A stretch of DNA of 64,000 nucleotides from Paracoccus salipaludis (lineage in GTDB: Bacteria > Pseudomonadota > Alphaproteobacteria > Rhodobacterales > Rhodobacteraceae): NCBI RefSeq assembly GCF_002287065.1, contig NZ_NSJZ01000002.1, forward strand, positions 62,001 through 126,000. Reading direction: 5' to 3'. Position numbers and translations under genes: made by a program. Position 1 is the first letter of the stretch. Each line of letters begins with the position of its first letter. Below the pieces are notes generated by a model. The model saw nothing but the letters and a program-made list of their open reading frames with translations. It was not told the origin of the DNA and ran no database searches. Positions 27,797-30,478 of the stretch are shown here, in pieces.

Positions 27797-27904
27797 CAAC
27801 TGCTTGATCGAACGGGAACGCGAGCCGCGCGAGGGCGTTGGGGGCGCAGATCGGGGACGGAAGAACGCTCCCGGCTGATCTTGATGAAAAGAAGGACGTC
27901 AACG

Positions 27905-28723
27905 ATGAAAGCTCTGCTTCTCGCCGCCACTTCGTCTCTGGCCCTGACCGGCTTCGCCATGGCGCAGACCGCGGTCACCACGGACACCCCGGCTGAAAAC
28001 GCCGTCGAGAACGCTGCAACCGCGACCGGCAACGCCGCGCAGGCCGTGGGCGACCAGGCCGAGGATATGGCGGACCAGGCCGAGAACGCGGCAGACCAGA
28101 CCGGCAACGCGGTTGATGAGTCGGTGACGATGGGCACTTCGGATGCCGCCGAGGACGGGCAGGACCGCGCCGAGGATGCTGCCGACGCGGCCGAGGACAG
28201 CGCCGATGCGGCCGTGACGGCGGGCAGCGGCACCGCGGCGACCACCACGACCGCGACGGGTTCGGACGCGGCCATGGGCGCGACCGGCGCGGGCGCCGAC
28301 CCGGTGACGGCGACCACCACCACGACCGAATCGACGACGGTGACCGCCACAAATGATGCGGGCGCCCCGGCGATGTCGGCCGATCACCCCGGCATGCTGG
28401 GCTCGTGGATCATGAACCGGCGCATCTGGACGACCAACCAGCCCTCGTCCACCGAATGGGCGGACACGACCCTGACCGAGCGTCCGGCCGAGTGGACCGA
28501 CATCGCCAAGGTGGATGACATCGTCGTGGACGTGGATGGCAACATCATGGGCTATGTGGCCGACATCGGCGGCTTCCTGGGCCTGGGCGCCAAGCAGGTG
28601 CTGCTGAACAAGGACGCGCTGCATTTCGTGCAGATCGGGGACGACGCCTTCTTCGCGACGAACTTCACCCGCGAGGAGCTCGAGGCGCTGCCGGACTTCG
28701 ACTCGACCACCGTCATGCGCTGA
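27905..28723 (+). CDS. secreted PRC-barrel protein with an Ala/Asp-rich helical repeat region
   Basis: 272 residues. A signal peptide (residues 1-20, cleavage near AMAQ) is followed by about 90 residues of repeated amphipathic-helix-like units, such as NAAQAVGDQAEDMADQAENAADQTGNAVD, rich in Ala, Asp, Glu and lacking bulky residues. A Thr-rich linker follows. The C-terminal PRC-barrel domain starts near residue 170 (MLGSWIMNRRIWTTNQ; VDDIVVDVDGNIMGYVADIGGFLGLGAKQVLL). The start at 27905 follows AAGAAGGA. Next door is a second PRC-barrel protein with the same closing phrase GGFLGIGERQV, so the pair are probably paralogues. Function unknown; envelope location is likely. Confidence 0.85.
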   Translation: MKALLLAATSSLALTGFAMAQTAVTTDTPAENAVENAATATGNAAQAVGDQAEDMADQAENAADQTGNAVDESVTMGTSDAAEDGQDRAEDAADAAEDSADAAVTAGSGTAATTTTATGSDAAMGATGAGADPVTATTTTTESTTVTATNDAGAPAMSADHPGMLGSWIMNRRIWTTNQPSSTEWADTTLTERPAEWTDIAKVDDIVVDVDGNIMGYVADIGGFLGLGAKQVLLNKDALHFVQIGDDAFFATNFTREELEALPDFDSTTVMR

Positions 28724-28746
28724 CGCGCGGGCTGCGGCCGCGACGG

Positions 28747-28776
28747 AAAGGGGCGCCCTTCGGGGTGCCCCTTTTT
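28747..28776 (+). terminator. rho-independent terminator after the first PRC-barrel gene
   Basis: GGGGCGCCC-TTCG-GGGTGCCCC is followed by TTTTT, with AAA before the stem. It lies 26 bp after the stop. Confidence 0.9.
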
Positions 28777-28872
28777 CGTTCCGGCGGGAACCGGCGCGCG
28801 GACGCGGGGTTGTGACGGCGATGCCTGAGACACCGGCGGGCACTTACAAAAAGAATAAGGAAAGGAACCTCG

Positions 28873-30126
28873 ATGCTGATCAAGCAGCTCTTTGGAACGG
28901 CCGCTGTGCTGTCCTTTGTCGCGGCTGGCGCGATGGCGCAGACCGCACCCGAAACCACGCCCGCAGACCCCGCGGCCCAGGCTGCTGATTCGGCCGCAGA
29001 CGCCGCCGGTGCCGCCGCGGTGGCGGCCGAAGTCGCGTCCGATGATGCCGCCACCGATGCGGCCGCGACCACCGACGCCGCGACCGGGACTGCCGCGACC
29101 GGAACCGCAGCCACCGGCACCGTTGCCGTGCCGGGCGGCCAGGTCGTGGTCGAGCAGGCCGAGCCCGTCGTGAACGTCGAGGTTCCGAACCCCGAGGTGC
29201 AGGTGATCCAGGCCGCGCCGCAGGTTCAGGTCGAACAGCCCGAGCCGACCGTGACCGTCACCCAGGCGCCGCCGCAGGTGAACGTGGAACAGTGCGCCCC
29301 GCGCATCACCGTCACCCAGGCCGAGCCCACCGTGACCGTGAACATCCCGCAGCCGATTGTCTCGGTCGCGCTGGCCGATCCCGAGGTCCGCGTGGGCGAA
29401 ACCCAGCCGGTCGTGACCGTGGAAACCCCCGAGCCGGTGGTCTCCTTCATCCAGCCCGAGCCGCGCGTCGTCGTCGAGGGCGCCGAGGCCCAGGTCAACG
29501 TGACCGAGGCCGAGGCTCAGGTCGAGGTGACGCGGGCCGAGGCCGCGCAGGTCGAGATCCGCCAGAACGAGGCCACCGTCAACGTCGAGCAGACGGGCGA
29601 GGCCCAGGTGAACGTCGCCGAGGCGCCCGAGCCGCAGGTCGAGGTGCAGCAGGCCGGCCAGGCGAATGTCGAAGTCCAGCAGGGCGAGGCCACCGTGAAC
29701 GTGACTGGCGCCGACGCGGCCGCCGCTGCGGGCGCGACGACGGTCGCCCCGGTGATGGCCACCGACATCGCGCTGCGCGAAGGCTATACCCTGGTCGATC
29801 CGGTCGAGGTGACGAACCAGGGCATCGACGGGCTGCAGGTCTTCGCGGCGAACGGCGAGGACTACACCGAGATCGGCGAGATCGACGCCTTCGACGCCGC
29901 GAGCAACACCGCGATCGTGGCGGTCGGCGGCTTCCTGGGGATCGGCGAGCGTCAGGTCGCCTATCCGCTGGACCAGATCTCGTTCCAGCGCACCGCGGCC
30001 GGCGATCTTGAAGCCTATGTCGGCACGCCCGCCGACCAGATCCAGAACCTGCCCGCCTATTCCGGCACCGCCTCGGGCGCGGGCGCTGGCACGGATGCAG
30101 GCGCGGCGACCGGCAGCAGCAACTGA
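28873..30126 (+). CDS. secreted PRC-barrel protein with about 20 tandem nonapeptide repeats
   Basis: 417 residues. Signal peptide (1-22, AMAQ), then an Ala/Asp/Thr-rich spacer to about residue 85. Residues 93-276 are a run of about 20 units of nine, sometimes ten, residues with the plan V-x-x-x-x-P/A-x-V-x, such as VEQPEPTVT, VTQAPPQVN and VNIPQPIVS. Alternating hydrophobic beta positions suggest a beta-solenoid or extended beta stalk. The region is strongly acidic and holds a single cysteine (C141). A PRC-barrel follows (ATDIALREGYTLVDP to LDQISFQR, about 295-370) and a Gly/Ala tail. It follows its paralogue by 150 bp but has a terminator between. Role unknown. Confidence 0.88.
   Translation: MLIKQLFGTAAVLSFVAAGAMAQTAPETTPADPAAQAADSAADAAGAAAVAAEVASDDAATDAAATTDAATGTAATGTAATGTVAVPGGQVVVEQAEPVVNVEVPNPEVQVIQAAPQVQVEQPEPTVTVTQAPPQVNVEQCAPRITVTQAEPTVTVNIPQPIVSVALADPEVRVGETQPVVTVETPEPVVSFIQPEPRVVVEGAEAQVNVTEAEAQVEVTRAEAAQVEIRQNEATVNVEQTGEAQVNVAEAPEPQVEVQQAGQANVEVQQGEATVNVTGADAAAAAGATTVAPVMATDIALREGYTLVDPVEVTNQGIDGLQVFAANGEDYTEIGEIDAFDAASNTAIVAVGGFLGIGERQVAYPLDQISFQRTAAGDLEAYVGTPADQIQNLPAYSGTASGAGAGTDAGAATGSSN
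29149..29700 (+). repeat. in-frame tandem repeat, about 27-bp unit
   Basis: Encodes the 9-10 residue beta repeats of the second PRC-barrel protein. Units 1-14 are nine residues (27 bp). Several later ones (15 and 17-19) are ten residues. The DNA units are diverged, so the array is old rather than a recent slippage product. Periodicity is read from the Val/Pro pattern of the translation. Confidence 0.8.
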
Positions 30127-30294: not shown

Positions 30295-30371
30295 GCGGTT
30301 GTAGCTCAGTTGGTTAGAGTACCGGCCTGTCACGCCGGGGGTCGCGGGTTCGAGCCCCGTCAACCGCGCCA
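30295..30371 (+). tRNA. tRNA-Asp (anticodon GTC), copy 1
   Basis: A 77-nt cloverleaf including an encoded CCA. The acceptor stem GCGGTTG pairs with CAACCGC. The D arm has AGCTCAGTTGGTTAGAGT, the anticodon loop is CCTGTCACG, and the T arm has GGGTTCGAGCCC. Identical to the copy that follows. Confidence 0.97.
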
Positions 30372-30401
30372 CCACCCCCGAGGATCGCCACCGGGCAATG
30401 C

Positions 30402-30478
30402 GCGGTTGTAGCTCAGTTGGTTAGAGTACCGGCCTGTCACGCCGGGGGTCGCGGGTTCGAGCCCCGTCAACCGCGCCA
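30402..30478 (+). tRNA. tRNA-Asp (anticodon GTC), copy 2
   Basis: Identical over all 77 nt to the first copy, including the encoded CCA, and separated from it by 30 bp. The two are surely one transcript. The perfect identity shows recent duplication or gene conversion. Confidence 0.97.

Follow-up and report, generated by a model that had tools for sequence, protein, structure and literature searches.

An exported PRC-barrel protein of Paracoccus salipaludis with a nine-residue repeat of conserved length and an EcfG-type promoter-like site upstream

The gene described here lies in the window, the whole 64 kb stretch of Paracoccus salipaludis DNA that was analysed, and encodes an exported protein that combines a PRC-barrel with a repeat that is old, locked in length and probably beta-structured, a description that is strongly supported (Table 1). 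The upstream DNA of the gene and its relatives strongly suggests membership in the EcfG regulon. The best explanation of the whole would be a periplasmic strut or spacer of the general stress response, a reading for which we consider belief and doubt to be evenly balanced.

Table 1. Features of the repeat-protein gene and its upstream region, in positions of the window
Feature	Position	Strand	Basis or remark
EcfG-type promoter-like site GGAAC-N16-CGTT	27815..27839	+	precedes the neighbouring PRC gene
Upstream neighbour, exported acidic Ala-rich low-complexity PRC-barrel protein without the repeat	27881..28723	+	PRC 21.0 bits
Terminator-like hairpin followed in the table by the repeat gene's own site; has a T run and separates the two PRC genes	28737..28785	+	-38.4 kcal/mol, z -4.2
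EcfG-type promoter-like site GGAAC-N16-GGTT	28787..28811	+	86 bp 5' of the start codon
Repeat-protein gene	28873..30126	+	exact ORF, 417 aa
Sec signal peptide, residues 1-22	28873..28938	+	read by eye; cleavage between AMA and Q23
Acidic Ala/Thr/Asp low-complexity linker, residues 23-87	28939..29133	+	sequence composition
Conserved half unit GGQVVVEQ, residues 88-95	29134..29157	+	alignment of relatives
Repeat domain, 20 units, residues 96-279	29158..29709	+	periodicity and alignment
C141, first residue of unit 6	29293..29295	+	alignment of 50 members
PRC-barrel domain, residues about 309-403	29797..30081	+	structure comparison and relatives

The ORF opens with an ATG codon located 3' of a purine-rich stretch, and the signal peptide, although read by eye, agrees with the secretion claimed in the preliminary description; most of the listed starts of relatives share a similar n-h-AxA pattern. 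Behind the half unit, the array consists of 16 nonapeptides and four decapeptides. All 20 units can be written out, and the V/I autocorrelation at lag 9 reaches 31, where 2000 shuffles gave 12.8 ± 2.7 (z 6.8); lags 18 and 27 show additional peaks. The nine-residue repeat with a few ten-residue units, about 20 in all, that had been proposed from the letters is thus confirmed, while the span of residues 93-276 assigned to it describes this array with its register shifted. The unit consensus, [PA]-E-P-x-V-x-V-x-Q, holds in the first 12-13 units. Across 13 aligned units from 50 proteins, position 1 is P/A, position 2 is E/Q/A, position 3 is P (94%), position 5 is V/I (100%), position 7 is V (82%) and position 9 is Q (45%); positions 4, 6 and 8 are among the most variable, and the acidic residues shift position. 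The repeat is acidic, as had been noted, with 28 E, 1 D, 5 R, no K and a net charge of -24. Likewise, C141 is indeed the only cysteine of the protein. Its column holds Cys in 23 of the 50 aligned members and Gln in 22, and the members with Cys comprise 22 of the 23 that belong to Paracoccus and one alphaproteobacterial MAG. Judging from the sequence, the Paracoccus form may use this cysteine for a disulphide link to a partner or to itself, which is speculation.

The 50 aligned relatives were taken from the window, Paracoccus genomes, family genomes and named GTDB contigs, and were chosen as alignable. They come mainly from Paracoccus and other Rhodobacteraceae, together with Rhizobium albus and two MAGs, and they are not independent, with two genomes contributing three paralogues each. 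Loci duplicating one already used were left out, as were L049, L050, L055-L061, L066, L114 and L123-L127; L049 and L050 had belonged to an earlier alignment of 21 sequences. The repeat domain measures 191-193 residues in 48 of the 50 members (191 in 26, 192 in 17 and 193 in five), with one member each at 195 and 197, and 126 columns (3-128) are free of gaps in 49 of them, while identity to the repeat of this protein drops to 36%. By comparison, the linker that precedes the repeat has between about 9 and 211 aa (with cleavage sites set by simple pattern matching), and the C-terminal part has 108 to 160 residues. A domain of fixed length beside a linker so variable indicates an old, length-locked domain in the aligned group, and an unstable tandem array is ruled out for this group given that length and register are kept. 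The length is fixed within the aligned group only: in several relatives outside it, the arrays are interrupted, shorter or longer. Ks exceeded Ka in the repeat in all seven close pairs (Ks 0.28 and Ka 0.015 in the nearest), and the closest named relative, that of Paracoccus chinensis, is 94% identical across the repeat and the PRC-barrel. Individual units are only moderately distinct by position. Orthologous units share 51% identity between proteins less than 60% identical overall, versus 38% between units within one protein, and the counterpart of a unit was its best or joint-best match in 9286 of 18486 trials. An 18-residue super-period, with two units per solenoid rung, is not supported, since the similarity of the variable positions at lag 2 (0.19) shows no excess over lags 1 (0.21) and 3 (0.24).

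Two AlphaFold2 runs were made on a fragment beginning at residue 88, one with and one without the PRC-barrel. Both models place the same eight strands, at fragment residues of about 21-25, 30-34, 39-44, 48-52, 57-61, 66-70, 75-79 and 84-88, so that over eight units each unit is a five-residue strand followed by a four-residue proline turn. This favours the beta structure that had been considered probable, and pure disorder, named beforehand as evidence against it, does not describe units 2-9. The confidence scores are low, with mean pLDDT of 58.8 and 50.6 and pTM of 0.37 and 0.26; over fragment residues 21-90, block pLDDT was 59-81 without the PRC-barrel and 53-69 with it. In units 13-20, pLDDT fell below 50, and disorder is thus possible in the second half of the array. 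As regards the suggested solenoid, the strands are spaced by nine residues, but the topology is unreadable from the models, and no usable fold match was obtained: fold searches with the repeat model gave E values of 0.56 or higher against solved structures and 0.32 or higher against viral models, the best comparison reached Z 2.7 with an rmsd near 9, and the repeat profile had a single chance-level match (E 0.6) among the sequences of solved structures. Fold-match lists of this quality speak neither for nor against a known fold. Matches to DUF4097, FecR, CAP_C, S1_2, DUF2807, DUF3060 and DUF2125 (in 6, 5, 4, 2, 1, 1 and 1 of the 50 members, respectively) were too weak to retain; some of these families are beta-helical. 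The repeat resembles the RTX beta-roll in its nine-residue unit of short strand and turn. It differs in having proline turns and an N-terminal signal peptide, where RTX proteins use type I secretion; the GGxGxDxUx motif is absent from all 20 units, and profile searches gave no RTX family match for this protein.

The main alternative to a strut is that the region is a mostly disordered, extended and proline-punctuated spacer with no fold of its own that only holds the PRC-barrel off its anchor, comparable to the Pro-rich periplasmic segment of TonB. The 20 prolines in 192 residues, the adjoining low-complexity linkers, the low overall pLDDT and pTM and the pLDDT below 50 in units 13-20 would all fit such a spacer. 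It accounts less well for a length constant to one or two residues and a V-x-V register kept down to the lowest identities in the alignment, for the identical strands in both models and for units that are partly individual, and we regard it as a reading of rather low probability, though the foremost among the alternatives.

The preliminary description had recognised no named family in the repeat, a view that now holds only in part. Every one of the 50 aligned members has a match to the DUF6470 profile (PF20074) with E <= 0.01, while this protein remains below the cut-off of 28.9 bits, with 19.6 bits at full length and 21.2 bits from residue 88, the match spanning only profile positions 15-51. 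A described family is therefore involved, yet one itself of unknown function, and because the register is shared with part of DUF6470, the repeat is not wholly undescribed. Thirteen other relatives were scanned singly, including two of the three proteins of L124, and the cut-off was passed by seven (L060, L122, two L124 proteins, L126, L130 and L135), in each case with the best stretch inside positions 1-64 of the 178 in the profile. L059, L108, L123, L131, L134 and L138 remained below it, with no listed match for L059, L123 and L134; L138 gave the sole long match (positions 4-171). Profile positions of about 3-51 carry the nine-residue register of the repeat. When the L130 repeat was permuted within unit positions (one permutation), it still scored 40.0 bits, against 44.9 bits for the whole natural protein, while one full shuffle left no PF20074 match. 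The match thus needs the register alone, and this test is indifferent between common descent and convergence on a strand-turn pattern. Among 14 control genomes, PF20074 was found in Bacillus subtilis alone, where the gene is presumably yviE (YviE) of the flagellar operon. To our knowledge, DUF6470 has not been described as exported or stress-controlled. What it has in common with this protein is part of the register, whereas the full 178-position domain is absent here. In the available part of one source, yviE adjoins flgL (PMC4054197).

The C-terminal domain can be identified as a PRC-barrel, as previously claimed, on the basis of the predicted fold and of relatives. The Pfam scan found no PF05239 match in the protein itself at E <= 1, but PF05239 matched 42 of the 50 aligned members (E <= 0.01), and model residues 222-316 matched 3htr (Foldseek E 2.5e-3, probability 1.00; Z 8.3 over 86 aligned residues, rmsd 3.5). 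These C-terminal residues, about 95 in number, also resemble photosynthetic reaction centre H chains, with Z 5.8-7.2. The PRC-barrels of 3htr and of the reaction centre H subunit are cytoplasmic, whereas here the domain comes after a signal peptide and the repeat.

In repeat proteins from two genomes, which additionally carry the PRC form, an OmpA-family domain replaces the C-terminal PRC-barrel (PF00691, 45.0 and 49.9 bits against a cut-off of 27.2). These proteins, encoded at L060 (the same gene as L139; 1045-2661) and L135 (1372-3009), have about 540 aa and EcfG-type sites upstream. OmpA-family domains of this type bind peptidoglycan, so the sister proteins point to the periplasm. For the docking of the PRC-barrel to a ring or stalk, which had been suggested, nothing was found, and the replacement by an OmpA-family domain indicates peptidoglycan instead. 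EF-hands occur N-terminal to the repeat in L124 6243-7274 (Acuticoccus) and L130, above curated cut-offs, and in L124 3472-4722, below them, while L126 and L134 have the repeat with no recognised partner domain. In Acuticoccus kalidii, L124 (3472-7274) holds three consecutive repeat-PRC genes.

The EF-hands above the cut-offs, together with a net charge of -14 to -39 in nine sampled members of the 50, would suit an acidic buffer in the periplasm, one to which Ca2+, other cations or proteins bind under stress and in which the strands merely display glutamates. Against it stand the shifting acidic residues, the high variability of positions 4, 6 and 8 and a charge that differs almost three-fold among members, which makes this reading improbable. 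Still less likely is a surface or matrix protein past the outer membrane, an adhesin or a subunit of a functional-amyloid-like fibre, for which the short V-x-V strands and the Q that recurs at position 9 recall curli-type ladders, given the proline in each of units 1-12, the periplasmic sister proteins with OmpA domains and the lack of any secretion gene recognised by eye among conserved neighbours.

The case for control by the general stress response comes from the upstream DNA. With the strict pattern GGAAC-N16/17-[CG]GTT, the CGTT form occurs three times in the 64 kb window where 1.5 are expected, which alone is unsurprising, so the comparison among relatives is what counts. Within 350 bp, an initial scan found sites at 20 of 58 repeat ORFs (mononucleotide shuffles, mean 0.8, maximum 5). 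ORFs were then removed if no signal-peptide start was recognised or if their upstream DNA was short or identical to another; the 52 regions left come from related species and are not independent. Strict sites lay within 150 bp in 19 of these, against a mean of 0.35 and a maximum of 3 in 300 dinucleotide shuffles, and when 180 bp were scored by number of matches, 34 of the 52 reached 8-9 of 9, as did 5.9% of mononucleotide shuffles; the remaining 18 scored 7 or less, nine of them from the roseobacter group. Control ORFs from the same loci had a strict site in 22 of 439 cases, of which 14 were other PRC-barrel genes (by locus and position). In the roseobacter-group loci L108, L110-L114 and L118-L120, a clear EcfG site is missing from the gene, which may be regulated differently; several of these loci lie near YihY-, DUF421- or AI-2E-transporter-like genes (read by eye). 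The EcfG-type promoter does not appear in the preliminary description.

The genome of P. salipaludis encodes NepR, the anti-sigma factor of EcfG (above the cut-off), beside ORFs in which PhyR and an ECF sigma factor were recognised by eye. NepR was found in 52 of the 53 genomes reached via 53 repeat loci, the exception being a Halomonas MAG whose array is short and divergent. In the family sample, where 13 genomes were counted as repeat-bearing by matched range, NepR was present in 13/13 of these versus 52/136 others (p 1e-5), and in 52/56 genomes matching the whole-protein profile versus 13/93 others, both comparisons being uncorrected for kinship. Related cases have been published: in the available parts of the sources, SMb20522 of S. 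meliloti (PMC6180224) and #1478 of S. melonis (PMC6599016) are PRC-barrel genes among RpoE2/EcfG targets with an EcfG-type promoter, and two PRC-barrel genes of Mesorhizobium loti stand high in a table of heat-shock-raised genes (PMC3989490). The likeness of SMb20522 and #1478 lies in the PRC-barrel name and the EcfG-type promoter, and Sinorhizobium plasmid matches span the PRC part alone.

Under the strut or spacer reading, PhyR would take NepR away, leaving the EcfG sigma factor free to transcribe the gene from its own promoter, a step for which the sites make a strong case. Export by Sec would follow, again with strong backing from the sequence, and since no lipobox was seen, the product would be soluble or held non-covalently in the periplasm. 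There, the repeat would form regular short beta strands and proline turns in an elongated body of group-fixed length, which the models support in part. The C-terminal module (the PRC-barrel here, the OmpA-family domain in the sisters) would anchor one end, and the repeat, as a strut or spacer, would stiffen or space the envelope under stress. We infer this mechanical role from the fixed length, the repeated strands and the exchange of end modules. More tentatively, the nine-residue Pro/Val beta repeat could be an undescribed elongated fold that is common to part of the Firmicute DUF6470 and serves, in Alphaproteobacteria, as a stress-made, length-calibrated periplasmic girder with exchangeable ends (PRC-barrel, OmpA-type and EF-hand), an extension that we consider possible but doubtful. 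The analysis provides a domain plan for a class of genes that recurs and probably belongs to the general stress response, and the testable idea that a repeat of locked length reinforces the envelope; if the fold is new, the DUF6470 label gains a structural meaning in two phyla.

The gene is patchily distributed within its genus. The repeat is present in at least 21 of 61 genomes, and the remainder match in the PRC part alone or not at all. The whole-protein profile matches 56 of 149 family genomes, mostly via the PRC part, and the repeat profile at 1e-8 found three of 289 genomes in a class-wide sample, that of P. salipaludis included. Carriers include Profundibacterium, Tranquillimonas, Oceaniovalibus, Roseobacter, Sulfitobacter, Marivita and Salipiger, and also Rhizobium albus, Lutibaculum, Acuticoccus, Chelativorans and Skermanella. 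In Paracoccus liaowanqingii, the repeat lies on three plasmids, one of which, mobilizable and 13.5 kb long, carries the relative L132 5986-6972 and genes for a MobV relaxase, a BLUF protein and a thermonuclease. A phage origin was rejected, with no match among 50,697 phage records; PHROGs gave a single weak match (E 0.009) to a family of unknown function. Among open-licence PubMed Central papers, we found no description of this repeat by title or abstract, no mention of DUF6470 and no paper naming 'PRC-barrel' and 'Paracoccus' together.

The upstream PRC-barrel gene has a homologue in the same place in 11 of 20 neighbourhoods, and its Pfam PRC score falls slightly below the cut-off of 21.2 bits. 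An operon with this neighbour is unlikely to be the sole route of expression, given that a strong hairpin and a second promoter-like site intervene. Directly downstream of the repeat-protein gene, at 30295-30478, are two tandem tRNA-Asp(gtc) genes, the only tRNAs that ARAGORN detected in the window.
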